Origin: Bolinopsis microptera | Taxonomy: Eukaryota > Ctenophora > Tentaculata > Lobata > Bolinopsidae | DNA length: 64,000 nt | Reading direction: 5' to 3' | Assembly (NCBI RefSeq): GCF_026151205.1 | Contig: NC_087082.1 | Location: 15,905,365 to 15,969,364 of the forward strand | Translations under genes and position numbers: made by a program | The notes under the pieces: model-generated | Seen by the model: the letters and a program-made list of their open reading frames with translations, nothing else | What the model was told of the DNA's origin: nothing | Database searches by the model: none | In this document: in pieces, positions 18,550 to 61,014 of the stretch | Position numbering within the stretch: the first letter of the stretch is position 1 | Layout of the letters: each line of letters begins with the position of its first letter

Positions 18550-21500
18550 TCACCGCCCCCAAACTGACGGCATTTGCGGTCACGTACTTATAGGAACCGC
18601 TAAACTCTTCCTTCATTGTCTCCGGCACGACATCGGCGCAGCTACTCTCCCCTACGTCGACAAAAACGGACAGGTACGGGTTGGAATTTTAATTGAAATA
18701 ATAATAAAAATCAGTGCTCAATTCTGCCTTCAGACAAGGCTCCCCAATTAGGTTGGGGGTCCTGTCGAAATGCGCGAAAATTTTTGCGCGCAGGTAGTAC
18801 AACATTTGAGTATTTTGCGCCACAGGCCACAGGTGGGCCCTCAAAATTGAGTTAACATCAGAACCTGTATGAGATTTAACCTGATAGTGATTACTGAGAG
18901 GTCGCTTCTTTTTGGGTTCTTTTGTTTTCAGATCAGCTTTTTTAAACAGAAATGCTTCCTTTTACAATGCCCATGAATCTCTGATGTGAGTCCTATAATT
19001 ATCTCTAGCATGATTTTTTTTAAATTTCAAAATTCAAATGAACTTTATATCAAGGATACAGTTATATTTAGAAAAGACCACAATATCTCCTGTGAGGGCA
19101 AAAACATGAAAAAAGAGAGCTAGAAAAATATTCATGTGCATGAGACTCAACACTACCAGACTGCAGCTGGAGTGAGAAACATTATGTAAACATCATAGTA
19201 AAATTTATTTCGCTGAAACAAAACACGGCGGTAAAACCATAATTACATTGGTGCCGACCCTACATAAAATCATTATAAATAATCAAGAGAACAAATTAAA
19301 ATGTAACGATACCTTCTTGCTACACTCTACAAACTCACACGATATAACAACAAAATAACATAATTATATATTATAATATACCAATCTATCTAACCACTCA
19401 ATGGACCTTCACGTACTGCGTGACGCGCTTTGTTTCAAAGAAGAAAAACGGCGCTTTCTAGTGCAGGTGAATAAAATTTAAATAAAATATTATAATATTC
19501 CAGGCCAGCAATACGTCAGAAGACAAATTTTCTCAGTCCTAGTCTAACATAGGCTGGCAATGCATTCCACAGAAGCATTGTTCTATAACTGACGTTTCAG
19601 TAACAACAACTTAATACTTAGTCTAGAGTATTGGCTATTATACTGGCTCAATACTGGCTCAATACGGCTCAATACTGGCCAATACTGGCTCAATACTGGC
19701 TCAATACTGGCTCAACCTTAACTACAGTTCATCTGCAAATAACTCTCGGTTATTCATAAAAATATAAAAGTTGGTTTTCATCAATAATAATGAATTTATA
19801 TAATATCGTATTTTAAATAATACCACAAAGTATATAGCTATGTAACAGTATATAGCACTTGTCTTCACTAGTTACTGGTATCAAATTTCGGGGGAAAATA
19901 GTTTATAAATTTGTAATAGGCAACTGTAACTCTTGTTCTCCATGCTCAGCGTTTCGCTGACACCTTGAAAATGACCTATTATCAACCAACAGTTACGGAG
20001 GGGTAGGAGCTTTGTATCATGCAGTTTGTAAAGCTAGGGTTTATTTTCCGGTTTTTTTTTAGGTTCCAGGTTTCCCTAATTGTATCTCTTTCGGTATTCT
20101 TCTTTTTGTTTGTTTCTTGTTTTTTTAATCTAAAAGTGTTTTTTTTTCCGCTTGGGTATTGATTGATCACGTGATGCTTTTTATCAAGTATGAACAAAAC
20201 TTTAGCTTACCCGGTGAAATTGAGCATCTTATTGTTCCCTGAGCCAATCGTAAGAAACGTGTGAAGTACGTCGGAATATTGGAAGAAGAGTGGATGAAAA
20301 AAAAAAATAACAAGATCACATTGTTTAAAATCCTTACAGTAAGAAGCGAAACCAATTTTTAATTCCCCCAAATAAATAGTTATATACCCTGGTGAATTCA
20401 GAAATGGCGCGGCAACTGCAAACATTCAGCTTTGAAGTATCGATAATAATCGTTTGTAATTTACAAAATCCCGCATTTTGGTTGGCTCGGTAATAATTTG
20501 GCTTGGGACTAGCTGGTGACTGGCTTTGGTAAACATTTTGTGTAAGAGTTAAGTTAGTATCTGTTTGTTTACTTTAACGTTTTTTTTCCTTAGATGTTTC
20601 TGATCCGTATTAAATTACTTTTTTCATGGATTAATGAATGTCCTTAATTTTTCAATCTACGTTTAAAGAGCGACGTTGACCGTGCAGGGCTGGATTAATT
20701 AGGTTCTGGAATGTGGAAATGTAAACATCTGCCCTTAACGGGTAGAAAAATTGGCAACGGTCCAGTTAAAATGTACTGTGATGGGGATAGGCGATGTTTT
20801 TTGAAAGACAGTGGAGGTCGGCCCAAAATAGACTTCTTTTGATCATGCACCGTGGTCAAATCATTGCTTTAGAATTGTAGCAGTAGCGCACTGAAATATA
20901 CATGTAGGCCCTCCTTAAACACAGGGCAGCCTAATAGAAAGCAAGCTATTCTGCTTAATAAACTGATAAATTTTAAGGAACTCATATTAGTGGAGTTTGT
21001 ATCAAAAGAAAAGCGGATAGGTATTATGATATGTAGGATCTTTTTGAGCGTACCAAAATGCTTTTAAAAAATCATTCAAAATTTAAACAATTTTTAATCT
21101 TCGTTTAGAAATTATAATGTCAAAGTAGCGTATTTAAAATACTTTAAATGCTTCAGGCATTTACTTCGGTAAGCTTGTTTTTTTAAATTTGAAATTGGAG
21201 CGGTTTGTCCGCTGGAATTAAACCATGTCATTAATTTTAAATTAAGCCAATGCTTGATGGCCTTAATAAATAAATCAAATTTCCCGACGCGGTCGATTGG
21301 TTTAAGTCCAATTAGTAATCCTGCACGTTGTTTAAATACTGCGATGGACCAATTATATTATATTTGATACTTTTATTTGTTCTTGCTGCAGCTTAGGTGA
21401 TATTAAGTCGGCAAATAGTGGCGATACCAACCGGCTATTACAGCTGTCTTAACAGCCGACGCTTACTTTTAATTAATTTCTACCCCACCTCGCGTCGGTC

Positions 21501-24500
21501 AGCTCTTTGTTTTAAAGGAAAAAAATCAAAACAGCCGACGCTTGTTTGTGTTCTGTTATGGCTATTGGCCGGCTATTAGCTGGTTAATAGCTGGTCGGTA
21601 CAGTACCTTTTTGCCATTTAGTCTAAGAGGCATATTGATATCAGTAAACGATAAAAACGAGGAGTAACCAAGATCATTATAAGATATTTGTATACAAATG
21701 TAAGGGCAAGGTTTTTACCCAAAAATAGATGGATTTTAAATAATCATGAATCATGATCTAGTGAGACCTTTTCTATATCAGTTCTCAGCTTATGTTATTA
21801 TTGTACACAATTATTACTAGCTAGTTTATCTTGTTAGTCCGCTTGTTATCCAGTTTAGATAATATAATACGGATATTATTACCAAATTATATCATCGAAT
21901 TATCCTTTTATTTTTTATTCTAAGCTTTTTGTCCTTGTGGATAAGTCATTACTTGTATCCATGTCTAACAATCTCCACTAAAAGCCTGGAACACAGATAA
22001 TCTGTCCCAACTTTCTCAGGCTTAAAATCGTAGGGACTACGGGTGGAAGATGAATAATTGAAATTTCAACAGCATCTTGTTCCCTTCATTGTGCTGATTA
22101 CAGGAAGCATTCTGTTTACGCTCATTCTGTAGAATGAGATATCGTTCATTTAAATTGGGTAAATCGTCTGTAACTTCCTAAACTACTAAAACCTTGACTA
22201 CTATACTTTGTTTCCGACCAGAGCACAGTGTAACAGTTAACTTCTTATAATCTTGACATTAATTTCATAATGTTGGACCAATCTCGCTTAAATCTCCACC
22301 ATCTCATGAATTTATAGTCCACTAACCACTTAGCAACCACTTAGAAACCAAACCTGCATTTACTCTGATGTCGATTAAATATAACTTAAACAAAGTGTCG
22401 TGGTTTGTTTTTTCGTTTGTTGATAAGGTAGCCGGAAGTTTTATCTGCAATTTGTGAGTAAGTTTTTCTAGCAAATTTTTAGTGTGTTTTGCTGTGGTTT
22501 TCTACTACATACATCCTCAAGACAAAACACCTTTTCAAAGATACACATGACTCCATGATGGACTTTAGCACGAACGCGCTGACGACCGAGGAAGAGTGAG
22601 GAGATGAAACACTTCTTCACAACATATGATGTAGACGAGAAATGGTATGTTAGAGTTGGATGAACTGCAAGAAAATGTTTGCTAATTTCAACGTCATCGC
22701 GTTGAAAAAAGGAGACATAAAGGGCTTCTTTTGAAAGGGTAACTATGGATCTTTAAGGGTTAACTAATGATTTACTTTTACTAGTCTTTTAAAATATCTG
22801 TTTATATTTCATTTTGGTACCCGATATTTGGACCAGCTAAGATAGATTTAAACGTTAATCAGTAAATTTTGTAGAAATGCCGGATACTTTCTGTCTTTTG
22901 ATTGGTCAATGATGGAAGCTGATTGGTCCACTTGCTGGCCCGCTGGGTCACTTTCCAGGAAGAAGTATTTCACCCACCAGTATCCATAATCAATTATGCA
23001 ATTACATAATTATGTAATTAATCGCTTTAAGGTTGAACACTGACCGGGGACGGAACTGTAGACTTTGATGGAGCTTGATGCAGTTATAGAGAGGATAAAT
23101 GGCAAGAAGTCTAACCTCATGATAAGTGGTTGGACGCTTTTAATCTTGATAGACGAGGGGATGGGTAGGTGGGGAGGTGTCACACGAAGAGGTCAGTGTT
23201 CTAGGGGCCGGGGGGAGGCGCACACGAGGAGGTCAGTGTTCTAGGGCCGGGGGAGGCCGCACACGAGGAGGTCAGTGTTCTAGGGGCCGGGGGGAGGTGT
23301 CACACGAGGAGTCAGTGTTCTAGGGGCCGGGGGGGGTGTCACACGAGGAGGTCAGTGTTTCTAGGGGCCCGGGGGAGGTGGTCACACACGAGGAGGTCAG
23401 TGGTTCTAGGGGCCCGGGGGAGGTGTCACACGAGGACTGAGGTCAGTGTTTCTAGGGGCCGGAGGAGGTTCACACGAGAGGTCAGTGTTTCTAGGGGCCG
23501 GGGGAGGTGTCACACGAGGAGGTCAGTGTTGTAGGCCGGGGGGAGGTGCACACGAGAGGTCTGTTCTAGGGGCCGGGGGAGGTTCACACAGGAGGGTCCC
23601 GTTGTAGGGCCGGGGGAGGGTGTCCACACGAGGAGGGTCAGTGTTCTAGGGGCCGGGGGGAGGTGTCCACACGAGGAGGTCAGTGTTTAGGGGCCCGGGG
23701 GAGGTGCACACGAGAAGGTCAGTGTTCTAGGGGCCGGGGGGTGTCACAACGAGGAGGTCAGTGTTCTAGGGGGCCGGGGGGAGGTGTCACACGAGGAGGT
23801 CAGTGTTCTGGTAGGCCGGGGGAGGGTGGTCACACGAGGAGGTCAGTGTTTCTAGGGGCCCGGGGGGAGGTGTCACACGAGGAGGTCAGTGTTCTAGGGG
23901 CCGGGGAGGGTCACACGAGGAGTCAGTGTCTAGGGGCCGGGGGGGTCACACGAGGGTCGTGGTTCAAGGCCGGGGGAAGGGTCCCACGAGGAGGTCAGGT
24001 TCTAGGGCCGGGAGGTGCACACGAGGTCATGTTCTAGGGGCCGGGGGGAGTGTCCACACGAGGAGGTCAGTGTTCTAGGGGCCGTGGGAGGTGTCACACG
24101 AGGAGGTCAGTGTTCTGGTGGCCGGGGGAGGTGTCACCACGAGGAGGTCAGTGTTCTAGGGGCCGGGGGGAGGTGTCACACCGAGGAGTCAGTGTTCTAG
24201 GGCCGGGGGAGGTGTCACACACGAGGAGGTCAGTGTTCTAGGGGCCGGGGGGAGGTGTCACACGAGGAGGTCAGTGTTCTAGGGGCCGGGGGAGGTGTCA
24301 CACGAGGAGGTCAGTGTTCTAGGGGCCGGGGGGAGGTGTCACACGAGGAGGTCAGTGTTCCTAGGGGCCGGGGTTGACTCTTCTTCTTTAATTTAGAACC
24401 ACACCTGCACTGTGCCCACATTCTGTAGATAAAAGTAAATTACGCCCTCTTCAGTTATGTGGCCATTAATATCTCTTTCCTTGAAGGTAGCGGTGGCGAT

Positions 24501-27500
24501 GTAGAAGGCAGACGTTGGAATCCCAACAGAAGACATAAAGTTTTCTTTTGGAGGAGGCAGATCTCAACAATGACGGGGACCATCAGCTTCTCAGAGTTCC
24601 GGAGTATAATCCACGGACTGTGAACAAATTGTAATGGGTGTTAAATGTGTTAAATGTGTTAAAAATGGGTGTTAAATGTGTTAAAATGTTTGTTATTTGT
24701 TCACAAATTTAAAATTTTGCCTTCGATATCACGATAATATGTGGTCTCTCTCCGCGCTGAAAAATGAAGAGTTTTGTTGAGCAACTTAACATATAAATGA
24801 GATCGTGAATCGTGATAATATGTTTGTAAATTAAATTTGAAATTTGATATTTTAATTTTACATTTTGTTAGCGAATAACGGATTCTCATTTTGTTATGTG
24901 ACATGATCATCAAAATGTATAATGGCAAATTCAGCATTCGGCTCAGCACAGCTGCCTTTACAATAAATATTATCTATATTTTATAATTAATATACATACG
25001 GTCTATTTATACCTTCGAATTACTAAAAGCCCTTGCCATTTTTATCGCATAAAGAAGTGCTCACTTAAGTATTTATACTTGGTCGCAACAACCGGGATAA
25101 AGAGTAATTTTTACCCAGAATACATTAAACAATGCGACTCATAAATAATACTCCAATCCGATTTTACATGTAATTTTATACAGTTTTATGATAGTAACAC
25201 CATAGAGAACATGCTACAGTAACCTTATAATCTTAAATCGTCTGGTTGGATATTGTCTACCTTCCTTGTTTTGTATCCGCTACCCAACACAGCATATGTC
25301 TCATGATCACCCTATGACATATGATGTTAACCAGTACTTAAATAAATACCAATCTTACCAAGTTGGGAGGTTTAACGAGCCACAATCGATCTAATGACAA
25401 AGGTCTTGATATCACCATTATTTCATTGTCTGTGACTGTATATCACAATGACAAAGGTCTTGATATCACCATTATTTCATTGTCCTTGTGACTGGTATAC
25501 CACTGGCCCAAATCCAAAGACAGATCGAGTTTTTTATGTTTTGCCGTCTTTGGCTCAACCGTATTGACAAATTTGTTGAAGATCTTTCCACTTTGGAAGA
25601 AAGTTTGTGCTGCTCTTTTAGACAAAAACAATGGACTTGTCATCATGACAGAAATTGTACTCCTGTGGCCTGTCCCCAGAAGAAGAAGAAGAAAATGAAA
25701 CACTTCTTCACAACGTACGAATGTGAATGAGAAACGGAATGCTAGAGTTTGATGAACTACAGAAGATGTATGCTAACTTCAATGTGATTGCACTGAAAGA
25801 GAGACAATTGTAGGCTTTTGATCGAAAAGGTAACTAGGGTAACTAGGGTAACCTTCTTCACCCTTGTTTCATTTCCTTATCCAGCTCAGCATATTAATAT
25901 GAAAGTATTGGCCGTGAGCAATCGTTTGGCTTTTTTACGTTTGATTACTTAATACCCAATAAACTAATTAATTATACAATTAATTAAATTAATTATGCAA
26001 TTATGTAATGAGCTCCTCCAAAGAGGTGGATACCGATCAGGACGGAACTGTTGACTTTGATGAGATGATGGCATGTCTCGAGGAGATACTATCAGAAAAA
26101 ACCAACTACAGATGACGTTATGGACCTTATTTAACTTAATAGATGAAGATGGAAATGGGAGAAGTATCTCATGAGGAAGTAATTCCTTAACTTATTTTTC
26201 CGAAATCGATATTTTTAATGATCAATTCAGGGGATTTTCAGCGACAAATTTTACTGATATCAGCCAACAAATTTCAGTGATTCTACTACTAGGTCGAGCC
26301 CTGGATCAATTAAGTGGATATTTGTATTTTCCATAGTTGAATCTTTTCCTTTCTTAAAGGTTGCGGTGGCTATGCAGAAGGCGGATGTTGGAATCTCAAC
26401 AAAAGACATCATGTATCTGCTAGCCGAGGCAGATCTCAACGTTGACGGCGGACTATCAGCTTTTTCGGAGTTTCGTAGTCTCATCTACGGACTCTGAAGA
26501 GTTCGTTGCCAGTGGGACACTGGTTTACTAGTTTACCATGGTTTACTAGTGGACCACTGGACCTGGAATCGGCTGGAATGTAAGGAATTTATTACCAGTT
26601 GACTAGTGGTGTCAGATGAGTAGGATTCTATGATCAGCAGGAAGTTGCGGTGGTATTTTAAAGCCAAGATGAGCTATTGAATGTTTGTGGAACTATTGCA
26701 TAGCTATTTTTTGCATTTGCTAAGTGGAGGATATTTAAATATTTTATTAATTCCCCGAATTTCTGAACATGGTTCTGAGATCCTTGAGTTATCAAGTATT
26801 GGAGCCCTTGTAGATTGGACAGTTTTTGTAAAAAAAGTTAACTTTGTGCTGCTGAAAGTAATGTATTGTGGCAACCAATTAGACTGTCCTCTTCTTATAT
26901 ACTTTTGTTTTAGAGTTTAGTTTGTTGTTGAAAGTCCACTCGATGATTCTGTTTAATGATTATTAATGTTTAATCTTTTTTTTTCTGAATAAATGATTTC
27001 CAAACATATAAAACAAAAATTGTTTGAATTGATTTGTCCTCTAAAAATGTATATGTCCTGCGATAAACACATTAAATAACGATTAAAAGACAATGTAAAC
27101 CTTTACTTCCTTTAGCTGATATTCTAAAATCCTAATAAAATATTTGAAGTGATACTCCAAAAAGCAACGAATGCATTGCTTTTTTTAGACTTGCAAATTG
27201 TTTTTCGAAATGTACCCTACATTAAATCCCAAAATTTTACATGATATTAAAAGGAACAGACGCGCCACTTGCTTTGCTTGGAAAAATTTAACGTCAATTA
27301 GTTGAACGATAACATTATTTTTAAATATTACATGTTTGAATTATCTAGAAAAATTGGAATTTTGATGGCTATGGAATCGTAAATCGGATAGGGAGTAAAG
27401 ATTTTTTTAAAGCGCGCATTCTTTGACATTTAGACTTCAGAGTCAACTCTAATCGTGAGAAGACTATCAACTTATTTAAAATTGTCTCTTTCAGGTATTC

Positions 27501-29008
27501 GGGGCCATTTGAAGGTGAAACTGCAGCGTCTGTTCTTCGTCCCCGCCACCCTAACAACACCCACAGCAGAACTGGAACTGATTCAGCTTTCGATAGGTTG
27601 ACCTCTCAATCGGCAGCAAGGTAAGCAGGGTCACACTACTTAAAGGGTAGTAGAGCTGTGTTTTTAGTTGATATCCTAGTGTTAGTTTAAGTTACTCCCT
27701 GAAATCAAACGCAATGCTTAGGTAATTCTCCCCTATGCTATCTCTATTAATAATAATTTGAATTCATTGTTATTTCCTCTATCCTAGAATATTTAAGTAT
27801 ATAATCAATTTTCCCAACGTGTGGTTACATTACACATTTAAGATTCACTCAGCAAATTTTGAGTTAAGTTTAAAGTTTCGTTTTCCTTCAGGTGACAGTT
27901 CACATAGGTGTTATTGAAGCTAACGGAATCCCCACAAAACTGAACAACTATGTATTTTGCCAGGTATGTCAGTAATTCAGTATGTCAAATAATTGTAATA
28001 TAACACAACCATGTTTCATTAAACCTTTTATCTGTGGTCCGTGAATATAGTAATCCGACACAATAGTTGCTTCGGAATTATTCGTCCATTGAGTATATTA
28101 GACTGAACCGAATGGTTTGCCACCAATTCACAGTGACAGCCGGGACTGGTGAAACATCACCCTGGTCTTCTGCTAAAAGCCCCATATTCGGATAACTCAA
28201 CCAAACCTGTCACATTGTAAAAACCTCAATGACCCTGGGGTAATGAGTTCTTGTAATGAGTTCTTGTGCATCTTCTTAACACAATTAAACCACAAACATT
28301 TAGTTGCTTAGTAAACGGGGGTAATTACCGTTTTTAAATCTATTTTATCTGGACATTGGTCCTCCACTCTACCGGACCGATTGTTTGAGAATTTCTTGGG
28401 ATTTTTCATAAACTCTGCTAATATATGGAGAAAATTGGAGTATTTGGAGCGACTAAGAAATCCCAGAAAATTGTAAATCTTTGATTATGAATGGTAAATT
28501 TAAAAAGTTTGCAAAATCTTTCTTTAAATATATTTTAATACACCGAGTGACTGAAAGCGACCCTTTTCAACTTTGCAGTTAAGAACGTTAAGTCTGGTCT
28601 GAAAGTCCTGACTAAATCTATTTATAATGTGCTGGTCGCGGATCTGGGAAAATCAATTTAGATAGTTTAAAAACCACTGCAGCTGTTCTTCAGTTCTTCA
28701 TTTAGACTCAAGTCATTTACTTTGGCATCCTCCCAAACTCTACCATTATTTAATCACCTACATAATTACATAATCACCTACCTAACTAACTAACTTATCA
28801 CCTAATGACCTACCTAATTAACTAATTACCTATATTGGCAGTACAAGTTTCTGGGATCCCCAAGGACATGAATCCTGCCCTGGTCTAGAGTTCCAGCAAC
28901 CACCCCCACGAACCAACACAGCCGTATTTGAGCACCAGAGACCTACACTGTTAACGTTACTCTAAGCTTTCTTAACTATGTCCAACACGAGGGTTACTCG
29001 CTGTGGAG
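18550..29008 (+). CDS. KIF13: Kinesin-3 (KIF13-type), middle-of-tail exons, partial
   Basis: Four plus-strand exons read in kinesin-3 order. Exon 18550-18673 gives VLIGTAKLFLHCLRHDI and PYVDKNGQ. Exon 27495-27620 gives RGHLKVKLQRLFF. Exon 27892-27963 gives VTVHIGVIEANGIP and NNYVFCQ. Exon 28842 to about 29008 gives YKFLGSP, then TNTAVFEHQRP and FLNYVQHEGYSL. I recognise these as the stretch of the KIF13 tail just before the KIF1/DUF3694-like region; kinesin-3 motors carry cargo along microtubules. The frame breaks at the start and middle of exon 2 and within exon 4. The first intron (8.8 kb) contains two EF-hand genes. Motor and FHA exons are not in the window. The continuation is on the opposite strand at 61.0-54.1 kb. 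Frame breaks may be sequencing errors or decay. Confidence 0.6.
18674..22557. other. Kinesin intron 1, first part: no gene seen
   Basis: This is AT-rich noncoding sequence. A short tandem repeat of AATACTGGCTC units lies at 19635-19715. CAGCCGACGCTT occurs twice near 21450-21545. No coding or RNA gene could be supported. Confidence 0.5.
22558..24623 (+). pseudogene. EF-hand (calmodulin-like) gene copy A, damaged
   Basis: Exon 1 (22558-22738) starts MDFSTNALTTEEE, shifts frame, then resembles MKHFFTTYDVDEK...MLELDELQ, an EF-hand with a degenerate loop. Exon 2 starts at 23032 and carries a D-x-D-x-D-G-T-V-D-F-D loop with a base change or indel. It continues to LILIDE and GGVSHEE at about 23190, the third loop. 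Exon 4 (24487-24623) reads VAVAM, a stop, KADVGIPTEDI, and after an indel LNNDGTISFSEF. A four-EF-hand calcium sensor of calmodulin or troponin C type is the likely ancestor. Several single-base indels and a stop break it. They may be errors, since the area is noisy. The ~1.2-kb minisatellite sits exactly at the end of exon 2/3. Confidence 0.6.
23170..24375 (+). repeat. ~40-bp G-rich minisatellite built from an EF-hand exon end and its splice donor
   Basis: About 30 tandem copies of a 39-42 bp unit, GGAGGTGTCACACGAGGAG followed by GTCAGTGTTCTAGGGGCCGG. The first unit is the end of the third EF-hand exon (GVSHEE) plus its 5' splice site (GAG/GTCAGT). Copy B has the single homologous junction GAAGTATCTCATGAGGAA/GT. 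Indels are frequent among units, especially in G and C runs. Confidence 0.85.
24624..25689. repeat. Spacer between EF-hand copies, with a local duplication
   Basis: No gene is supported. A ~53-bp segment containing ATGACAAAGGTCTTGATATC is repeated in tandem at about 25394 and 25447. The stretch 25490-25690 stays open into copy B but resembles no known domain. Short TTAAATGTG repeats lie at 24635-24690. Confidence 0.5.
25690..26497 (+). pseudogene. EF-hand (calmodulin-like) gene copy B, damaged
   Basis: Exon 1 (to 25829) contains MKHFFTTYE, then LQKMYANFNVIALKER in another frame, so an indel lies between. Exon 2 (26036-26178) gives VDTDQDGTVDFDEMMACLEE, a good EF-hand loop. After a shift it gives LFNLIDEDGNG, the next loop, ending at donor GAGGAA/GTAATT. 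Exon 4 (26360-26497) is intact and reads VAVAMQKADVGISTKDIMY to LAEADLNVDGGLSAFSEFRS and ends LIYGL. It is a tandem paralogue of copy A, lies within the kinesin intron on the same strand, and lacks the exon-end minisatellite. At least two indels break the reading frame; correction could restore a normal four-EF-hand protein. Confidence 0.6.
26498..27494. other. Noncoding, remainder of kinesin intron 1
   Basis: No gene or repeat of note was seen, apart from three GTTTACTAGT-like repeats at 26518-26555. The pyrimidine tract before the acceptor at 27494 is TTGTCTCTTTCAG. Confidence 0.5.
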
Positions 29009-29059
29009 GTTTGTTTTTCGGAGTCCTAAGAATACTCTAATTCTTAATTTTCCCCGCTA

Positions 29060-29200
29060 AATCGGGTACTGGGAAATAACTTTACTTTAACTGTTGAAAA
29101 TGTAAACCCTTTCCCCCCCAAAAAGTGTACAAAAAAAGTCTTTAAACTGACTTAAAAGGGGAAACTGTCCCCAAATGTTGATTTTTGGAGGACCCTAATG
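29060..29200. other. Suspect sequence after the last plus-strand kinesin exon
   Basis: This homopolymer-heavy stretch (runs of C, A and T, such as CCCTTTCCCCCCCAAAAAG) is unlike its neighbours and similar in style to 60.2-61.2 kb. It may be a poorly assembled join. Confidence 0.4.
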
Positions 29201-29204
29201 ATGA

Positions 29205-30110
29205 CTGATTTATTCTATCTAACTACATTCAGCAATGGAATCCACCCAAAAGTTGACAGTTTTAATTATAAGTAGATATCATCTATGAATCCACCCCTAA
29301 TGTTGACTGTATTATTCTAACTACAATATGTCAGCTATGAATCACACCTAAAAGTTGACTTGTTTTATTATGAGTAGATATCAGCTATAATCCACTCCTA
29401 ATGTTGATGTTTTATTCTAACAACTACATATTCAGCTATGAATCCACCTTCCTAAAGTTGACTGTTTTATTAATGAGTAGATATCCTCTATGAAGTCACC
29501 CCCTAAATTTGACTGTTTTTATTTATAAGTAGATATCAGTATGAATCCACCCTAATGTTGACTGTTTTATTCTAACTACGAGTAATCAGCTATGAATCCC
29601 ACGCTAAAGTTACTGTTTTATTGTAGAAGATATCAGCTAAGAATCACACCCGTAAAAGTTTACTTGTTTTATTGTAAGTAGATATCAGCTATGATTCCAC
29701 CCTAATTTGAACTTGTTTTTATTTGTAAGTAGAATCTCAGCTATGAATCCACCCAAGAAGTTGGCACTGTTTTAATTGTAAGTAATATCAGCTATGAAAT
29801 CCACCCTAAGTGACTGTTTTATTAGAGTAGATATCAGGATGAATCCACCCTAATTTGACTGTTTATTCTAACTACATATCAGCTATGGATCCACCCCTAA
29901 ATTTGACTGTTTAATAATAAGTATGATATCACTTATGAAATTCCACCCTAATGTTGTACTGTTATTTTTTTTAGTCTAACTACATATGTCAACTATGAAT
30001 CCACCCTAAAGTGACTGTTTTATTATGATAGATATCAGCTATGCATCCACCCTACTGTTGATGTTTTATTCTAACTAACATAGACCAGCTATGAAACCAC
30101 CCGTTATGCT
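29205..30110 (+). repeat. 48-bp minisatellite, second array, ~19 noisy copies
   Basis: This is the same repeat family and orientation as 15.8-16.1 kb (GTTGACTGTTTTATT, CAGCTATGAATCCACCC, alternating A and B units). Almost every unit carries different small insertions or deletions. The error pattern, rather than steady divergence, suggests unpolished long-read sequence. Confidence 0.85.
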
Positions 30111-30626
30111 GTCTCCACCTCGGTTGAGCCGATTCTGAGGATCCTATTCTATGAAATATGATTGGTATAACCCATAATATTAAATATTAGGACTTTGGAG
30201 CAATTAAAAAGCATGAGAGGGTTAGTTCTAGTCACTTATATTAGCTCATGTAGTCAGTGAGCTGCTCCACCTGTGTTGAGCAGACAAACCTGCTCAACCG
30301 GCACTTTTTGAGTACCCACCTGTCTTACCTAACTTTAAATTGTGAAATTTGGAGTAAATATTTTTTTCATAAGTGATTTACAGCTCCTTTATTTTTGTAA
30401 TTTTCAGGTGGCCACTGTCTCCACCAAGGTTGAGTTATTTAAATTTTGAACCCAGATATCATTATAGAAAGGTTAGGAGTATAATATCTGAAGAGCCTGT
30501 ACCCCTTGGACTGTCAGAGGAATTATAATTAATTTTACCGTTTATGGCAGTGAAATGAGTGTAATTAGTGACTGATTTTATGTACAGGTTGTCTCCGAAC
30601 TTGACCATATAGCAAATAATTTGAGA
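30110..30626. other. Noncoding with three CTCCACC..GTTGAG motifs
   Basis: No gene was seen. The motif CTCCACCNNNGTTGAG occurs at about 30114, 30265 and 30420, roughly 150 bp apart, which suggests a loose tandem repeat. Confidence 0.4.
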
Positions 30627-31634
30627 CAGTTATATTATATCTTTAAATGACACTTACTTTGTTTAACAACTTAAATCTTATAACTGTAACTTATTAAAAT
30701 CTACATTACATTTTCTCTCAGTACCTGACAAAGATTGGTGGTCATATTTCCAATAACTGGACTGTTGAGGGACATTATGACCGAGTTTACCCTCAACACT
30801 GATCCATCTTTCAGATTCAGCACCTGGGTGTCCTCCACGAAACAGTTACGATCAAACTTAGGCTGTAATATTTACGATCGTGAGACATCCACTGTCAAAG
30901 TTACTATCAATCTGTCCACGAAACGTTAATCGATTTAAGCCTTACGATTGAACTTTAGCTACTTACGATATAACTTTACGATCTACATATGATATCCTAC
31001 TACCACCTTATTAACCCAAATAAGGAGCGTGATGGTTGCGTGAGGTGAATCACGCGATCGTAGATTCAAAATTTGATCGTAAGTTGAACTTTTGGTTGAT
31101 CGTAGAAATGGCCACTTACGATATAACTCACGACACCTATTTGTCAACTTTTAGGGACTTACGATCAACTTAGAGGTCGATATTACGCTATTACCGAATC
31201 TTCTTCCTATATTCTTAAACGTTTAATGACTTTAAATGGTACTGATCAAAATAGTCTGTGATCGGATAAAAGTGTTTATAGTTATATTATTTCAATAACA
31301 ATAGAGGACATGCTAATATACCCATTGAACGAAATTAAAAATTATTACCATTCTGCTCATACGGGTAATGATAAAAATATGATGACCTCACAGTTAACAA
31401 AATATAATTGCGCATTTAACCAAAGAATAATCATTCTGACTCTGTGCTGTACTAATTTCAGTTGTAAAAATCATATTTTCATTACGCGTCTAATCTTTGA
31501 GCTCTCTTATCTTTTTAAGTTTTTAGTACTTCGCCTTATCTTACTTGTCAATATTCATATTCCCTAGTGGATTTCTAAGATTATTTCCAAGATTATTTCG
31601 TAAATTCATACTCAAGTCCCTTTAATACTGTATA

Positions 31635-32381
31635 ATGGAAACTATACTGGCCGGTAAACTAGCCACTCTGAACTCACTTGGTCCTCGCCTGGACAGTCTC
31701 CAAATTACTGATCCAGCGCTTATAGAACTTAAATTTATTTTAAATACTGTGATTACGCAGCTTATCGAGGTTAAGACCGACCTTGTTATTTCGTCTATCA
31801 CTCAGCAGGAAAGTTTTATCCGTACTGCCAAAACTGAGCAGTATAGTCGACGAAATACGTGTGTTGTTGTTGGATTAAAGGTTGATGCATCTGAATCAAA
31901 TAATACACACAGTAAGCTTGCTGATAATGTTTGTAAAACTCTTTCTACGGTGTCAGGTACCCCGGTTAAGCCGACAGATTTATCTGCCGTACATCGTAAT
32001 GGCAGTGGTAAAACACAGTCGCAAGAGGGTCGTTCTACCCGATCTAATAATAAAACCCCTCCGTCGGTCACCGTTTGTTTCTATAACAGTAATTTGAAGG
32101 ATAAAATTATGCAAAACTTCTCAAACTTTGACTCATCAGCTGATAAGCCACGTGATGTCAGACTTTATCAATCGTTAACTAAGTTCTATTCTGATCTCAA
32201 GACCCAAATATCTGGTCTAGTTGAGTCTAGTCTAGGTAAGAACAAGGTTCGTTGGATCCACTGGAGATCGCAGTCTGCTGGTTTAGTCGTAAAACTGAAA
32301 GATAGCAATCAAACCGTCATCAAGAGTATCTTCTGCTTTGATGATTTCAAGAAGCAATTTCAATCTCTAAACCTAAACTAG
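31635..32381 (+). CDS. LINE ORF1 protein (RNA-binding, nucleic-acid chaperone type)
   Basis: This 248-residue protein has an N-terminal helical or coiled-coil stretch (about residues 1-60). Next comes EQYSRRNTCVVVGLKV near 70-85, the start of the RRM-like fold in many LINE ORF1 proteins. A conserved pattern VTVCFYNSNLKDKIMQNF and a C-terminal basic region (RWIHWRSQSAGLVVKLKD) follow. Family ORF1 proteins bind the element RNA and help assemble the retrotransposition particle. The frame is intact. It lies 696 bp before ORF2, and the A-rich spacer between them includes a poly(A)-like stretch at 32880-32985. Confidence 0.75.
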   Translation: METILAGKLATLNSLGPRLDSLQITDPALIELKFILNTVITQLIEVKTDLVISSITQQESFIRTAKTEQYSRRNTCVVVGLKVDASESNNTHSKLADNVCKTLSTVSGTPVKPTDLSAVHRNGSGKTQSQEGRSTRSNNKTPPSVTVCFYNSNLKDKIMQNFSNFDSSADKPRDVRLYQSLTKFYSDLKTQISGLVESSLGKNKVRWIHWRSQSAGLVVKLKDSNQTVIKSIFCFDDFKKQFQSLNLN

Positions 32382-33077
32382 TCAGATTTCGATATTTTCT
32401 TAATTCTCCATGGTTCTATCAGCTAACCATTTGATTCACTAATACAGTTTTGATCTCTATAGTTTACCGCTTGGAACTGTCTAATACGGTTTAAACTACG
32501 ATTTTTAGATTATTACGGTGCTAACTATACCACACGTTATTGACCGCTTGATTACGTCACTAGCTTTTATTGCGTCACCCGATGTCTTGTTTTCCCGCGC
32601 TGGTCGTATTATTGTGAGTTTTTATCTACATTTTATCATCATTTAATCATTTAGTTTTTCACCCTCTGTCTATTGTTGAACAACCTTATCTACTTTACTG
32701 CCCGTTTAATCACCATTTTCACCATCTTTTCCCATTAAGTTGATATCTAATCTGACATTTTATCTTTTCATCGCTGAAAAACTTAAATATGAAAATCTTA
32801 TTTCTGATCGACAAGGTTCGAGCTATTTCAGCAAATTGTGGGGTTTTAAGGTTAAACCTTATAATTTCGCTTCAATAATTTATAAAAAGAAAAGAAAAGA
32901 AAAAGACAAAAAAAAAAGAAAAAGAAAAAAATACATTGGTAAAAAAGTCGTAAAAAAAAAAAAAAAAGAAAAAAGAAAAGTTGAATTAAATAGACAGTTT
33001 ATGCAAAACATGTTTTAAAATAAAGTTTCCATTACTCAAGTGTACGTTAACATGGTTAGGGACTTGCTTTCGATACT

Positions 33078-38003: not shown

Positions 38004-39212
38004 TTAAAGGTGTATTGAAATTAACCTTTTCTTGGAGCTGAAGTGAGTAACCATTAGTTTGTTTCTTGCCACGATCCCGCGGATGCTGAGCGTCTTATCG
38101 GATTGTGAGATAGTAGGTGGTGGTCGGATCGACACATTAGCAATGTTCTCAAGTTCTATGCTCTTCTTCACATGCTCTGAAGTTGTCATCGGGAAATTCC
38201 GCTCAATGCAATAATTATGCAACACCATGCAGCTCACGATTATAGCGCATGCCATATCAGGTGCAAACATCAGGGCACCCCCACTCTCCTTGCAGAGGCA
38301 TCTGAAGCGAGATTTTAGTGCCCCAAATGCCCGCTCAATTACACACCGAGACTTCTTGTGGCGTCCATTATATTTTACCTTTGCCGTGGAGTCCGGTTCA
38401 AGATACGGTATCATCATTTCTTCTCTCTGAGCATACCCCGAATCCCCAATGAGCCAACCTTGGTAGTCAGAGGGTTTTGAAGCGAGGAAAAGCCCCAGTT
38501 CTTCTCTGAAAGAGCAATGCTCCCATATTGTAGAATCATTTACGCTCGCAGGCCACCGAACAGATGCTTCCAAAAACTTTAATCTATGGTCACAAATTGC
38601 CTGACAGTTAATGTAGTGTCCGGGATGCCGACCCACATACGCATCTTCGTCAACTGACGGGGCTCTTATCTTTATCTTAGTCCCATCAATTGCCCCAAGA
38701 CACCCTGGAAACCCACCATAATCCAGGAAACCTTGTTTAGTCGCAACAACCGAGCTTGTTTCCCACGAGTTAGTGATATACTCACTCGCCAATGACGACA
38801 AGGCAACCGAAACATTCTTTACACAATTCTCGACAGAACCAAGTGACAGTTTGAGGTCGGCAGTGCTGCGAAGTGAGCGAAGTGAGTTGCCAGAGGAATA
38901 GAAGCTAAGGGCAACCATGAGCTGAGTCTCAACAGGGAGGCCAGATTGAGTCTTCCGCTCAATCAACTCGTGTTTTCTGATTTTTTCTGCGAAATGATGG
39001 ATTCCGACTTTGTCTAAACGAAAATTATCTATTATTGAAGTATCAGTAGAGCGGTCAAGAAAGTCAGTAACAGACTGATGAGTTCGACTGACGACCGGAT
39101 GGCTCTGGACGGTGACCCTGTTGCTATACCAATGATAAAATGCCATTATTGATTTCGTGAATTCCTTAAATGCAAATAAATTAAGTTGATTGTTGAGGGA
39201 GTGTGGTATCAT
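38004..39212 (-). CDS. Harbinger transposase (DDE_Tnp_4, HARBI1-like)
   Basis: This intact 402-residue protein has the catalytic triad of the PIF/Harbinger family: D176 in CLGAIDGTKIKI, D257 in GWLIGDSGY and E293 in RCVIERAFGALKSRFRCL. The N-terminal part (residues ~50-160) is helical, as in HARBI1. It would cut and rejoin the element ends, normally together with the Myb-like partner that guides it to the nucleus and to DNA. That partner is encoded divergently at 39992-41152, 780 bp away. The start chosen is the first ATG; a shorter start at residue 23 is possible. All residues needed for catalysis seem present, so the protein may be functional. Confidence 0.92.
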   Translation of the reverse strand: MIPHSLNNQLNLFAFKEFTKSIMAFYHWYSNRVTVQSHPVVSRTHQSVTDFLDRSTDTSIIDNFRLDKVGIHHFAEKIRKHELIERKTQSGLPVETQLMVALSFYSSGNSLRSLRSTADLKLSLGSVENCVKNVSVALSSLASEYITNSWETSSVVATKQGFLDYGGFPGCLGAIDGTKIKIRAPSVDEDAYVGRHPGHYINCQAICDHRLKFLEASVRWPASVNDSTIWEHCSFREELGLFLASKPSDYQGWLIGDSGYAQREEMMIPYLEPDSTAKVKYNGRHKKSRCVIERAFGALKSRFRCLCKESGGALMFAPDMACAIIVSCMVLHNYCIERNFPMTTSEHVKKSIELENIANVSIRPPPTISQSDKTLSIRGIVARNKLMVTHFSSKKRLISIHL

Positions 39213-45359: not shown

Positions 45360-45386
45360 CTATATAACAAATAATTTGAGTTCAGG

Positions 45387-53803: not shown

Positions 53804-54115
53804 CATAATTTACCACGTCTTTTGCATAAATTCAAAATCTTAATATCATAGTCCACCCTTTTTTGTTATATCCCTGGTTTCTATAGACCACGCCTTGCAT
53901 GCTCTCAGAACCAAATAACTTGAGAAATTTGTGGGTGCCATTTATAAATTAGAAATTATATAATACAGATAAAGAATCACAGATGAAGACACACAAGTAA
54001 TTCTTAACTACAGGATTCCAGAACACAAACTAAAAACTATCATCTGTTCTAAGAACGATACCATTTATCGCTCAACGATCGATAATCACCATCGGTCGGC
54101 GCTAATTTCACTATT

Positions 54116-57100
54116 CTAAAGCGGGTCAATGGAATCGTCCAACTCGGAAAGCCCGTTCGAATTAGAGTAATTGTTATCGATCTTCTCTACAACTTCAAAA
54201 TCATGATCTTCTCTTGAATTATTTTCACTACTATTGTTTTGGAAGGTTGAATGTTCGTTGCTGTTATCTTCAATCATGTCTGAGTCTTTTATTGGAGTTG
54301 ATGTTCTGAAATAGAAAAGAAATCATTATGCGTCAAAACAGTATTTTAAGGTTTGAATATGGTACGATGCAAAGCACAAACAAACCAATCAGTCCATGGA
54401 TACAGCATTTATTAAACGAAGAAATCTATTTGTTAGGACTGGTTACATATTATTACTGGTTATGATTATACATGTATTATGTATTATTATGGATAACAAA
54501 TTACATCATATTTATTGCAGATCATACTATTTAATACAACTCATTCGGCAATATTGCACAACTGGCGAGATGCCAATATTTATTGCAGGTGTGATCTCTG
54601 TTACAATTGTTAATCTTCGTACAAGGAATGAGGAATGTAAAATTGGAATGTGTGTATGATGAAGTTTACTGATCAAAATATCTTTTTACACTCCAAGTTT
54701 TAAATCAGGATATCATGAGATCTGCAGTTTTGAGAGTGTGCCAGTAAATTCTTAATTTTGGCTAAAAGTAGTGATGAAATCAAATGAGATACATTTGCAT
54801 CGATCAAAAATTAATGGTAAATTTAAGAAAAAATATCATGTTTCCAGCATTCCGCAAAAAGTTTTAAATCAGAATGTGTGTTCAAATTAAAACTGTGTTT
54901 GAGGTACTTCGATAGCTCAATTTAAGTTACACTACCTTTTATTCAAATTCTCGTGATAGAAGTTGGAGAAAGCAGGAATACCCGTGACCACCTCATACAT
55001 CACTCCACATCTGTAACAATCATTAATACTATGTAAAATCCGACATTTAATATCAAACATAAAAAACCAAACCCCAGGAGCTGGCTGATAACGGCATCAA
55101 ATTTCATCCAAATTGTTATTACCCTTAATTAATTAATTACAAGGAGAAGTCACGTACCGTTTAGGGATATCCTGCATAAACCCCCTCATGCTGTCCCTAA
55201 GACTCTTCTTCTTGTACACTCGCACACACACACGTTTACGTAACACCAGCTCCAGCTCCATCCCGTATGGCAGTGACACATCTACACCAACCTGCAAAGT
55301 AACATAACTGATGATATCTGATGATATCACGTGACATTACAATGCATTACAATACATTACAATGCATGGCATTTTGTAACACTGTACAATGTACATCACG
55401 CATCACAGCTTCAGTGTAGCATTGTGTAAATTGAAGAGGTTGAAGGAAGTTATATGTAGCACTTGAGCCAAATAACAATATACAGATCACACTATCCGTA
55501 GTGCAGCCAACAATATGATAGGGTAATAAAACCCCAATATAAAACCCCAATATAATCTACTTATTCACATCCTCACAACTAAAAGTAGGCTGACAACAGC
55601 TACTGAATGTAACTACAGTTTACCCAGGTGCGGTACATGATAAACTGAGTAGTAGCAAACCCTGTTATACACAAAGGACCCGTGTGTAGTATACACGAGT
55701 GTTTACACAATGCAATTACTAAACAGTAAAGCCAGATTTAGTAGCTTCTTTAGTAAGGAGTCCCCTGGGAGCCAAGTTAATACCATGCTCCAGATCTCTC
55801 TCTCTCTAATAAGCCATCTTATTATTATACATAATACATACTAATTAACATAATACAGTAGACTTGTGGTGGCTACCAGTCATGTTCCACAGAACGGATA
55901 ATTAAGAAGACAGACTGCACATGCACTAAGTGCCCTTTTTAAATGTGCCTTTAACCATAGTGCCGCTTACAAGATCTTGGATCTGACTCCAACTCTGTGT
56001 TTCCTTGAGTTTCTCAGCGGTTAGATATTATCCTCTTGTTCGCTAATTACCAACTTAGTGCCAGCTAATTACCCAGTATCCACTAATAACCAACTAATTA
56101 CCAACTAATTACCCACTAATTACCTACTAATTACCCACTAATTACCTGTAAAGTTAGGTAGATCCTCTGTTCAGGTTCAGTCAGGCAATTCAAACTCTCT
56201 GTCTCGTGAGTGGAGCTGTCCCAAGCGGAGATAGCACAAACTCTGTGCTGGTCGTGTTTTACCTGAGGAGGATAGTACTGTAACACGTTAGATAAATAGT
56301 TAATTAGTTAATTAGATAATTAGTTAATTAGTTAATTAGATAATTAGTTAATTAGTTAAGTGATTTTTAAACATTGTTTATTTAATTGTAAGGCCTGGAT
56401 TTTAACAATTGTATTGTCAAGCTTTTAAGAAATACACGGCACAATTTCTACTTGACTTGACAACAACAATTCCTCTGAGAAAATACTTAAACTTAACTTT
56501 GAGTCAATCTCTCATGATGTAAGTAAACATCCAGACTAACATTCCTTATAATTACTTAAAAGTATGAAATCACAAACACACTTAAAGAAGTCATGCTGTG
56601 AGATCACAAGGACAAGTAAGCTAAATTAACGGTTATTATAACGTCAAGCTAATGCCATCACATAGTGACAGCAGATGGCATTATACACGCACTAGCTACA
56701 TGATACATATTTAGTCTGATAGTAACTTAGTAAAGTGTAGATGCGTGGTCTTACACGTATTACCAAGCATGACTGAGGCCGTTACATGATGCATAGTTTA
56801 CATAGCGGAATAGTTGCAGCTCCCTTACTCAGTAAGGTTAAATAGTTCTGGGTTGTGAGATGTGCGGTATTGTGCGGTAATGCGCGGTATTGTGCGACAA
56901 TGTGCGGTATTGTGCGGTAATGTGCGGTAATGTGAGACTGGTGAGTGGTGAGGTATACTACTGTTATTACTAGAGAATAGTACTGTCTTTAGGCAGGCGT
57001 AGAGAAGAGAATGCTTACAATTCGAGTCATACGTGAGCATCAATCCAACATATTTAAATTGGATGATTCCTAATTATTTGATTGAATTAGATTAATAAGT

Positions 57101-60100
57101 TAAGAAAAATGAGAAGTGTAATCAATACAAGGCTAGATCAATAACTAAGGATAATTATAATGGTACTAAATTAAGGAGTAAGGGTAGTAAGATAATTGGA
57201 TAATTAAGCGTAGTAATATTATGATGAAATTAACTACTGAAAAGTAGGCTTACGGGAATTTATAATATGGTACATAACATAGCAAGATGACAACTAAAAT
57301 AACAACAAACTAACTGTAGTGAGTCTGATCATCTGGTTAGGATCCTGACCACTAACATTGCTCCTCTCCCGATAACAATCCTGTTTTTAGGGTTCTGTCT
57401 CAGCTGCTCGTTGACGTCTGCAAACAAGGTGGGTATACGGGACTCCATACCCTGGGGGACAGGGCGCGTGTCTCGTGCACCTGGTACACCGGAGTTCTCT
57501 TTAGGAAGGAGCACTGCATCACGCTCACGCAGTAATCTGGCAGGAATGTTGCGTTAATAATTGGTAGTCAGGATAAAATACTTAAGTCTGTCTCCGGCAC
57601 AGACTAAATAAACAAATATTCAATATACAGGGCGGGCCAGGATTAATTTCACGTACTGAAGAGCAATATCTTGTTTCTCTTATTACTATAGAGTGAGTAC
57701 TCATACGTGAACATAGCTACATTTAGGAGTATAAAAGCGGTGCCAGCCAATTTAAGCGCCCTAATCATCTCGCACACACATAATCATTAACTTCATGAAT
57801 AATAAAAGTATCCTGCACACAGACCACACAGTATACACACAGTATGAGTATACACAGTATCCACACAGACCTGATCCACTCCTCCAGAAGTTTCCCCCTC
57901 TCCTCCTCCTCCTCCTCTGTGAGAGCCTCCTTCTCTGTGAGGCGGTGCAGTTGTTCTCCTATCCTGTTCTGGACTGACTCAAGCGCTTCACTCCACGCAC
58001 ACCGCAGCTTTAGCAGATCCTGGGAGAAGAGAGTTTTAATATTATGTGCTGTGTCAACTATCTGTTAGTTCATGACTGGGAGGAATTGTTTCAATTAGTT
58101 TTCACGTGAAACTGTCAACACTTTCAGTATCTGTTTCAAGACTTGGGACAGAGCAGCAGAGCTGTACATGATTTGTTATTCGTCATGATATCATGTCGAA
58201 TGTTCAGCGTGTTTGGTACTACTTGTAATGTACAGATATTACATGTATTATAAGGTATTACTTGTGTTTGGTATCAGACTAAACTGTTTCTCTGATACTG
58301 AAATATATATTAAATCGCTACGTATAAGCACTAAGCGATCCGTCATCCGAGGGACCGAGTAGCAAGATTGAAGAAACTACATAATATACACCTGTAGTTA
58401 TGAAGGCTAAGTAGCAATTAAAATGAGCTGTCAGGAAACAGGCACACACTACATTTATTGTACGGAAATAGAGTATTTAGTAGGCTGTTTGTCTCCACAA
58501 TAAGTAATTGCAATAAGATTGGATTGTGAGGTATTTATAGTCAAACTCACATTCAACGAGCTTGTCAATATAATGGTGTCTCAAGAAAATGTTATTATAT
58601 TCTACTCCGAAATCCGAATATATAGAATATATTATATTGCCGATTACGCGTTTTAAAAGGATCACCTTATCGAATTGGCACATTCACCACTAATAACAGG
58701 AATTATTTAAATCCTATTTTACTTCAACTATGATCATTCTATTCGAAACCTTCCACAGCAATGCAAGAGATCCCTAATTAACAAAACAAAAAATTGTCTA
58801 TTGATTAATTAATTATTACATATAATTAACTACAAACCTCGTTCTGGTAACTGTCGAGAGCGGGCTGATGTCTGGTTTGAGTGTGGACGTTGCCGATGCT
58901 AATACTGCTGATGCTCTTACAGGCGATGTTACCTCCTGCCCCAACAGGTAACACTCGCACTAGGATACGGCGGGATAACCCCTGTCGTAGCTGAAAGGGG
59001 AGTGTTAAATGAGGTTAAGTGAGGCAAAGGGGAGTGTTAAATGAGGTTAAGTGAGGCAAAGGGGAGTGTTAAACGAGGTTAAGCGAGGCGAAGGGGAGTG
59101 CTATTCTAGAAGTTTTGTTATTAGATCGTGAACGTACAGCTCAGATAATAGTTTGATTTGAAAAAGAGATTAGAGTCAAATAGCGGGTCTCATAGTTAGT
59201 ATCATTGTTTATACTGTTATATCCGGTTATTATATGTTATATAACAGTATTATGCACACAAGGAAATAGTTTAGACGATAACATTCAGGTTAGAGTTGAT
59301 AAAACGTAAGGTATTTGGTTTGTTGTCTCTGGTATGTTGATATTTTAAGGTAAAACGCCCTTCTTGATGACAGATATCACAATTAATATCGTAAAGGTAT
59401 GGGAATAAAACTGGAGGCAAGTGTGATATTTGAATATAAAGGTACTGAAACTAAGTTTAACTTAGCCTTCGGCCGGACACTAAACTTCAAGTCTGGTAAC
59501 TCAGCTTTGAGCAAAGAAACTGAGATTTAAATTTAATATGATATAGTCCTCGGTCCACGTTTACAATAATCACGAAGATACATTTTATTTGATCGCTATC
59601 AGATCAAACCACGCATTTACGTTAGGCAATTAGAAAAAAGTTTACAAGAAAATTTCTTGTAAACATTTTTCTAATTGCCTAATGTAAATGCGTGGTTTGA
59701 TCTGATAGCGATCAAATAAAATTTATGCGTATTGGTCTGCATTTAATGCAGACCAATACGCATACATTTTAATGAGATTACAAAGTGAAGAATAAAAATG
59801 AAAGAATTACCAGAGTAACTCTAAAATGTAAAGTTTTACCTGGTAAATACCGCCAGTCTTGATATCATTCCTCTCCTGGACCTCTACTGCTGAGTATATC
59901 CCGTTATCGTTTATCTCCAATATCTGGAATTTAATAGGAATGTAAACAACAATGTATTGAGGAATGTACTTAACAATAAACATGGATTAGATGAATATTT
60001 TATGTTTACACTGAACGAATATTACACGCCTGTGCACCTAAGATCAGTGCACCTAAGATGGCAGTTTTAAATCCACAGCCAGGATCTTATCGAATATTCA

Positions 60101-61014
60101 AGTCAATTATCAAGTAGAGTTCAATAACCAGGAATTGTAGTTCTGGTGTTTAATTATAATACTGTATCTGACAGTACTGTGGAATGACGAACAACACGCC
60201 ATTCTCCTTTAAAAGGTTTTTTAACCGTTTTTTTAACACTTCTAACGGGTTTTAACGAAATTTTTTTAATACAAAAAGAAACCAGGAAGATAAAAATTTT
60301 TCGCGCCCCTAACAAACAAAAAGATACACTTTCCCCCTGTGGCGGGTGTTAAAATGAAAAATCCACTGAAATTCTTGACCGAAAACTTCCGACTTGAAAA
60401 ACTAAAGTCTTTCTATTAACAGTGAAAAAAAGACGTCCCAACATGTAAAAATTCTAAAACTTGGGATAAAATTTTAAGTTTGTGGGGAAAAGTTTTACGC
60501 CAATAACACCTTTATTAACGGGAACGACGCCCTGTGGCTTACACCCCGAAAAATTCAGTCACAAAGAGCCTTAAAAAATTTTCTTTCAAATGAAATTTTT
60601 TAAATTACTTTGATTTAAAGTAAAATGTAATTACATAGTGCCATGAATGTTTGGGGGGAAAAAACCTTTCCCTTTTCAAAATGTCTTTACGAGCTTATTC
60701 GCATCATGATTACGGGATTAGTTATTTGTGGGTTAATTTTAAATTTCCTTAATGTTACTTTTTTAGGATACCACACCATTATTTTCTATGTTAAACAAAT
60801 AACTTTACCAATTTCCTACTTGAGCAAAAAGACAAAGCTTTTCATCTGAAAATTCCGCCTACACACCCCAACAAACTCCCATTTTCTACACCCCACTTCC
60901 ACACCACTTTCAAAATTTTCAAAATATTACCCTTTTCCCCCGGGACTAAGGAGCCCCACTAGTTCACCCACCTCACACAACACACCTGTCCACTTGGGAC
61001 TTTCCCACACCACA
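54116..61014 (-). CDS. KIF13: Kinesin-3 (KIF13-type), C-terminal half, partial
   Basis: Exons read downwards: 61014-60986 (29 nt, tentative), 59923-59840, 58990-58838, 58019-57871, 57536-57350, 56277-56146, 55291-55158, 55010-54936 and 54305-54116 (stop). Phases agree from 59923 on. Diagnostic blocks are ILEINDNGIYSAVEV, TGGIYQLRQGLSRRILVRV, SISIGNVH, RERDAVLLPKENSGVPGA, CAISAWDSSTHETESLN, MELELVLRKRVCVRVYKKKS and CGVMYEVVTGIP. They follow the KIF13 tail (DUF3694 region) in order. The end is acidic (EVVEKIDNNY). There is no CAP-Gly domain, so it resembles KIF13A more than KIF13B in that respect. The preceding part of the protein is not found at higher coordinates but is on the plus strand at 18.5-29.0 kb. 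Confidence 0.85.
56030..56365. repeat. TAATTA-type short repeats flanking a kinesin exon
   Basis: CCAACTAATTAC-like units lie at 56045-56145 and (GTTAATTAGATAATTA)n at 56290-56362, either side of exon 56146-56277. Confidence 0.7.
56858..56935. repeat. TGTGCGGTAA-type short repeat
   Basis: About eight units of roughly 10 bp (TGTGCGGTAT / TGTGCGGTAA) lie in tandem within a kinesin intron. Confidence 0.7.
58993..59100. repeat. 34-bp tandem repeat in kinesin intron
   Basis: Three units contain AAAGGGGAGTGTTAAATGAG followed by GTTAAGTGAGGC, immediately upstream (in gene direction) of the exon starting 58990. Confidence 0.8.
59582..59764. repeat. Two adjacent near-perfect palindromes in a kinesin intron
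   Basis: Palindrome 1 (59582-59722) has 70-nt arms with about two mismatches and a one-base centre at 59652. Palindrome 2 (59724-59764) has perfect 20-nt arms, TATGCGTATTGGTCTGCATT. They are separated by one base. They could be a foldback MITE or an RNA hairpin locus. Confidence 0.85.

Follow-up and report, generated by a model that had tools for sequence, protein, structure and literature searches.

Does a single kinesin-3 gene of the ctenophore Bolinopsis microptera lie broken over two DNA strands, or is it whole on one of them? The question is raised by a stretch of 64,000 nucleotides (the window; positions 15,905,365 to 15,969,364 of NC_087082.1, here C11, in assembly GCF_026151205.1), in which exons encoding the tail of a KIF13-like kinesin appear on both strands. 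A preliminary description of the window explained them as one gene split by an inversion or misassembly of about 29-61 kb. Our own reading, held with good confidence that stops short of certainty, is that there is one unbroken gene on the minus strand, accompanied by a misplaced and poorly corrected plus-strand copy that is most likely an assembly artefact.

Positions past the window end are given on the window scale, in which the window numbering is carried on past 64 kb (window-scale 68318-79137 is C11:15973682-15984501), and 40 kb beyond the end were added as comparison sequence. Human KIF13A, used as a yardstick only, served as tblastn query. Homopolymer content was expressed as the observed/expected ratio of identical dinucleotides per kilobase, for 104 kilobases. 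The presence of KIF13 tail exons on both strands was confirmed by tblastn, by reading of the frames and by the DUF3694 score. On the minus strand, six segments of KIF13A residues 989-1276 were matched with E values from 1e-6 to 0.007; together with reading of the sequence, this confirmed tail exons inside the window from 59923 down to about 54119. The preliminary description also placed minus-strand exons at 59.93-61.0 kb, where no kinesin-like match was found. The minus-strand features are as follows.

60001-61000, no strand: noisy stretch in the intron between exons E and E0, identical-dinucleotide ratio 1.44
59840-59923, minus: exon E (ILEINDNG...), tblastn match and frame join
58838-58990, minus: exon F, tblastn match and frame join
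57871-58019, minus: exon G, tblastn match and frame join
57341-57536, minus: exon H, tblastn match; 3' end unsettled, with no GT at the end tried
56146-56277, minus: exon I, tblastn match
55157-55291, minus: exon J, tblastn match; ends good to about one base
54938-55009, minus: exon K (CGVMYEVVTGIP...), from sequence reading, with a weak match (E 1.0) to the full-length KIF13 described below
54119-54304, minus: probable last exon with stop, proposed from frame and acceptor

To find partners of the four plus-strand exons (A-D), they were searched against the whole genome. It turned out that all four are matched on the minus strand at C11:15973874-15984031, which lies 4-15 kb outside the window; E values are 8e-13 to 5e-9 with the partners A', D' and C', and 0.13 with B'. 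A further weak match fell on a full-length KIF13 at C11 9.24 Mb. The claim that neither part has a second copy is thus true inside the window and fails just beyond it, while the plus and minus exon sets indeed do not overlap inside the window. Spliced together, A', B', C', D', E0, E, F and G read through in one open frame, and each internal boundary between them has AG/GT; the start of A' and the end of H are unsettled. Exon E0 (window-scale 68068-68199, minus) is without a partner in the plus copy, which ends about 120 bases short of it. The joined minus tail scores 69.5 bits for DUF3694 (the Pfam "Kinesin protein" domain; cut-off 27 bits), and A'-H alone scores 36.0 bits. Since A' to G stand in one frame on the minus strand, the tail gene is whole on one strand; in our reading it extends unbroken from window-scale 78.67 kb (C11:15984031) to a probable end near 54.1 kb, inside the window.

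The plus-strand exons form part of a much longer match. Over its full length, window 18113-29192 corresponds to window-scale 79137-68318 on the opposite strand, with 93.2% identity over 11,227 columns, of which 554 are gap columns (blastn). The "misassembly" half of the earlier explanation finds support in a different form, as an error-rich extra copy of 68.3-79.1 kb placed inverted at 18.1-29.2 kb, between other error-rich stretches. Its parts are listed below.

18113-29192, plus: inverted second copy of C11:15973682-15984501, error-rich (blastn; asymmetry of insertions and deletions, or indels)
18581-18676, plus: copy of KIF13 tail exon A with internal compensating indels (tblastn E 0.10; alignment to A')
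27495-27621, plus: copy of exon B, out of frame; it has 127 nt where the minus-strand exon has 117 nt (alignment)
27892-27963, plus: copy of exon C, frame intact (tblastn E 0.021; alignment)
28842-29011, plus: copy of exon D with stops in all three frames; it has 170 nt where the minus-strand exon has 162 nt (alignment; tblastn E 5.8)

The KIF13A residues matched by copies A, C and D (787-828, 868-892 and 882-944, respectively) are found far more weakly than those on the minus strand, and exon B was assigned through frame and position, not through a KIF13A match. The peptides VFEHQRP and FLNYVQHEGY, which had been taken to mark the plus-strand join, are partly artefactual, as they were read across frame shifts; the minus copy gives VFEHQETYTVNVTQSFLNYVNDGLLAVE in one frame.

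We compared the two copies by three alignments. MAFFT (10,640 aligned bases) gave 413 mismatches, with 223 extra-base events in the plus copy against 58 in the minus copy. With a gap-friendly aligner and the minisatellite left out (9,331 aligned bases), there were 133 mismatches, 43 of them isolated (18 transitions and 25 transversions), and 266 extra-base events against 75. BLAST, counted for 24.42-29.2 kb only (4,579 aligned bases), gave 97 mismatches and 132 events against 19. Small insertions are hence 3.5 to 7 times commoner in the plus copy, whose frame is broken by them, and this one-sided excess is independent of the aligner, while the mismatch count depends on it. The extra bases are spread in a Poisson-like manner (mean 4.06 and variance 3.18 per 200 columns, in 48 alignment intervals), with 3.5 per interval in the 8 intervals that have 0-1 mismatches against 4.0-4.4 elsewhere; the correlation of insertion with substitution density is 0.20. 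Most isolated one-base extras (102 of 110) repeat the adjacent base. Besides, a 41-bp minisatellite within the copy shows 11% indels in the plus copy against 1-2% in the minus copy.

Two tandem EF-hand genes lie in the intron between KIF13 exons A and B, at window 24430-26500 (plus) and window-scale 70900-74884 (minus). They are open on the minus strand and frame-shifted in the plus copy, where their exons differ from the minus ones almost solely by inserted bases; the minisatellite, which is GC-rich, extends into one of them. A third copy of the inverted stretch was not borne out for window 19000-22800: among the best 40 of 459 candidates, the only length-wide matches are to itself and to the minus locus, and the other matches listed are a dispersed repeat in the first ~590 bases.

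Two kinds of control were available. In four comparisons between repeat copies of the same region (three of them BTB-like genes, with copies reused among the comparisons), we counted 46, 46, 32 and 33 mismatches with 14, 10, 2 and 6 gap events, respectively, and transitions exceeded transversions in all four. The second control is an inverted duplication of another kinesin, 4.6 Mb from this locus (C11:11.30/11.34 Mb), with mismatches and gap events of 16 and 6 in 3,140 bp, 37 and 12 in 2,194 bp, and 5 and 1 in 242 bp. This pair (C11:11299000-11308999 and C11:11333500-11343499, 96.5-99% identical) was considered as another case of the same artefact and rejected, both copies being clean where aligned, and was therefore used as a control. 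Each of its copies has an extra segment: 3.5 kb in C11:11333500-11343499 (its positions 3327-6852, homopolymer-rich at the start) and 1.3 kb in C11:11299000-11308999 (its positions 8436-9759). Against these controls, the plus copy differs from its near-identical partner in an indel-dominated and insertion-biased way. Because the copies are near-identical save for small indels typical of uncorrected long reads, the plus copy is most likely an assembly artefact.

The noise does not stop at the ends of the copy. Its surroundings are the following.

15809-16131, plus: clean minisatellite of ~96 bp, 95% match and 1% indels; the suspect stretch has its left edge here
16139-18108, plus: noisy copy of C8:9426278-9428258 (chromosome 8); the match stops at 18108, and BLAST aligns the inverted copy from 5 bases further on; a 24-bp repeat in it has 4% indels here against 0% on chromosome 8
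29193-30102, plus: noisy minisatellite of the same ~96-100-bp family as 15809-16131, 74% match and 15% indels, abutting the inverted copy
30103-30611, plus: clean dispersed repeat; 39 further places are listed at 97-100% identity (best 40 of 131 candidates)

The shared minisatellite family was recognised by comparing 14901-18200 with 29101-33500. As the sequence is clean left of 16.13 kb and from 30103 on, the suspect stretch is taken as about 16.13-30.10 kb. The homopolymer index is raised (1.25-1.84) at window-scale 60-61, 65-68 and 88-97 kb, and it is 0.84-1.18 in the remaining kilobases save for 1.29 at 20 kb, inside the copy. The odd sequence that the preliminary description noted near its presumed joins is thus real, with the excess at 60-61 kb given above. 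Values for the plus copy (0.98-1.29) and the minus copy (0.95-1.14) are not clearly apart, and the index flags the rawest stretches only. The most extreme excess covers nine kilobases at window-scale 88000-97000 (1.49-1.84), which are apparently raw long-read filler.

How could such a copy come about? The methods text of the B. microptera assembly paper names PacBio continuous long reads (CLR), wtdbg2, HiRise, TGS-GapCloser, Purge Haplotigs and pilon (PMC10232365). Passages of the TGS-GapCloser paper state that raw long-read inserts require error correction, and that repeats or base-calling errors lead to misalignment and may raise the number of large misassemblies (PMC7476103). The unbroken A'-G frame on the minus strand, the second copy and its error-like differences are direct observations; the absence of the plus copy from the animal and the particular assembly step that produced it are inferred. 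One possibility is that long reads of this locus, such as those of the other haplotype, gave a poorly corrected contig that was scaffolded beside its own locus and had its gaps closed with raw reads. Alternatively, a chimeric read may have filled a gap situated in a minisatellite.

Several points weigh against an artefact or blur its outline. The errors of the left patch are of another mix than those of the inverted copy: against chromosome 8, BLAST (1,919 aligned bases) gave 84 mismatches, of which 72 are transversions and 33 are A to T, with 43 events extra in the window and 58 missing, and the gap-friendly aligner (1,462 aligned bases) gave 46 mismatches with one transition. Therefore the 14-kb stretch need not share one origin. 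Some true divergence between the two copies is possible, since the mismatch counts depend on the aligner (413 against 133). Haplotig removal (Purge Haplotigs) and short-read polishing (pilon), which the methods text names after gap closing (PMC10232365), ought in principle to have removed a patch of this kind, yet evidently they did not. The minus gene itself runs through noisy sequence in its E0-E intron (60-61 and 65-68 kb), so the link from E0 to E is based on strand, order of exons and frame rather than on clean DNA. Finally, the clean inverted kinesin duplication at C11:11.30/11.34 Mb is an example of an inverted duplication in this assembly that looks real.

The last point bears on the explanation that survives best beside an artefact, a real and recent inverted segmental duplication of 11 kb with copies ~39 kb apart, whose plus copy was poorly corrected because reads were shared by near-identical copies or a gap was filled with raw reads. 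The 43 isolated mismatches in 9331 bases are compatible with a young duplication, and a spanning raw read may be right in order though poor in letters. However, the errors span the copy, its left neighbour (the chromosome-8 copy) and its right neighbour alike, between clean edges at ~16.13 and 30.10 kb, and the clean edge at 30103 is the start of a repeat with 39 further listed occurrences, which makes it an unsafe anchor for a filler. We regard a real duplication as rather improbable, though it keeps some weight.

Decay of an old inverted duplicate into a pseudogene would account for the frame shifts and stops in plus exons B and D, but it is very unlikely: insertions greatly exceed deletions and are nearly independent of substitution density, the EF-hand exons in the copy differ almost only by inserted bases, and the diverged repeats of the region show no such pattern. 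As for a true inversion of about 29-61 kb breaking one kinesin gene, the non-overlapping exons of the two strands are complementary in order within the window, but the same exons, with E0 (which inverting omits), stand directly upstream on the minus strand, correctly ordered, in one frame and with AG/GT. The inversion is thereby refuted within this assembly and hardly credible, since it could hold only if, of the two copies, that at 68-79 kb on the minus strand were false. The eIF4G gene, whose orientation was said to be hidden by the inversion, needs no re-orientation: its MIF4G matches are on the minus strand, with 36.7 bits (over the cut-off) at 44.7-45.1 kb and 18.6 bits (below it) at 43.8-44.0 kb.

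With the tail gene read as unbroken on the minus strand, we asked where its motor is. The preliminary description had named motor exons upstream on the minus strand as evidence against its inversion; upstream tail exons were found there and motor exons were not. In the roughly 65 kb upstream of A', as far as 16.049 Mb, no motor, KIF1B or FHA-like exons were found, and no KIF13 motor exon was found at window-scale 64-144 kb, where gaps or noisy stretches could hide exons. For the kinesin motor PF00225, no match lies on C11 beyond 11.35 Mb, among at least 109 matches genome-wide and 7 on C11 (best 122 of 127 candidates). The KIF1B domain PF12423 has no match at the locus and five genome-wide, namely two on C1 and one each at C11:9.24 Mb, on C7 and on C6 (below the cut-off). 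A full-length KIF13 query including the FHA region gave nothing below E 0.1 that is N-terminal of A' near the locus, although for the C7 kinesin-3 it listed no FHA exon either, and PF00498 itself was not searched. The kinesin-3 at C1:8.55 Mb, which we take to be KIF28-like, was tried as the missing front half and rejected, as its motor and KIF1B region differ from those of KIF13; the unclassified kinesin motors at C8 11.10 and 13.51 Mb may be candidates. Directly upstream of A', on the same strand, EF-hand/coiled-coil reading frames occupy window-scale 79.7-83.9 kb; their best Pfam match is EF-hand, below the cut-off, and no link to A' was found.

A single full-length KIF13-like gene was found, at C11:9234094-9239311 (minus), 6.7 Mb from the window gene, and it is nearly intronless. 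It has motor, Kinesin_assoc, FHA, KIF1B and DUF3694 domains and a partial CAP-Gly domain. Its two long open frames, of 1015 and 766 codons, are in different frames and overlap near positions 3865-3995 of a segment in which the gene occupies 1695-6912. Tentatively, the intron-bearing window locus might be tail-only ("headless"), with the cargo/tail half kept, motor, FHA and stalk lost and the motor supplied by the nearly intronless gene, perhaps a retrocopy that replaced its parent; we see this as possible but somewhat doubtful. If true, a motorless KIF13 tail, from about residue 787 of KIF13A, could serve as an adaptor or as a competitor of the motor. Among the papers listed in a literature search on KIF13 and kinesin-3, none contained the word ctenophore, and none listed in a further search named Bolinopsis microptera; absence from print is not claimed.

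Other genes surround these loci. A BTB-like family flanks the KIF13/eIF4G block (window 5.5-15.6 kb, window-scale 97.9-101.5 kb and C11:16.014-16.031 Mb); the BTB match of one copy is just below the cut-off, and a second kind of open frame lies between the copies (9093, 12290, 15126 and 98877). At window 38007-41149, a DDE_Tnp_4 transposase on the minus strand and a Myb/SANT protein on the plus strand are arranged divergently, presumably as a Harbinger-like transposon. Two long open frames of the non-LTR type, at window 196-2607 and 33060-36764, encode endonuclease and reverse transcriptase domains.

In conclusion, the claimed gene-breaking inversion is cleared, and ~14 kb (16.1-30.1 kb) together with the other noisy stretches are unsafe for gene models and for claims on structural variants or synteny. 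The indel spectrum, tested with local repeats as controls, offers a read-free way to spot such patches, and a tail-only KIF13 locus alongside a nearly intronless full-length KIF13 makes a small testable question.

Compared with known systems, the plus copy resembles the artefacts of gap closing or haplotig placement with error-prone long reads: inserts of raw reads are described as needing error correction in passages of the TGS-GapCloser paper (PMC7476103), and this tool is named for B. microptera. A difference is that gap closing at the plus copy is presumed, not taken from a record of the gaps closed. The window gene differs from the full-length KIF13 of the same chromosome, to which its tail is 44% identical over query 26-286; the latter is nearly intronless, whereas the window gene has ~13 proposed exons and no motor was found for it. 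Unlike in human KIF13A, no motor, FHA or KIF1B-domain exons were found for the window locus, but its tail segments agree with KIF13A in order and sequence, from residue ~787 to 1276 and including the DUF3694 region.

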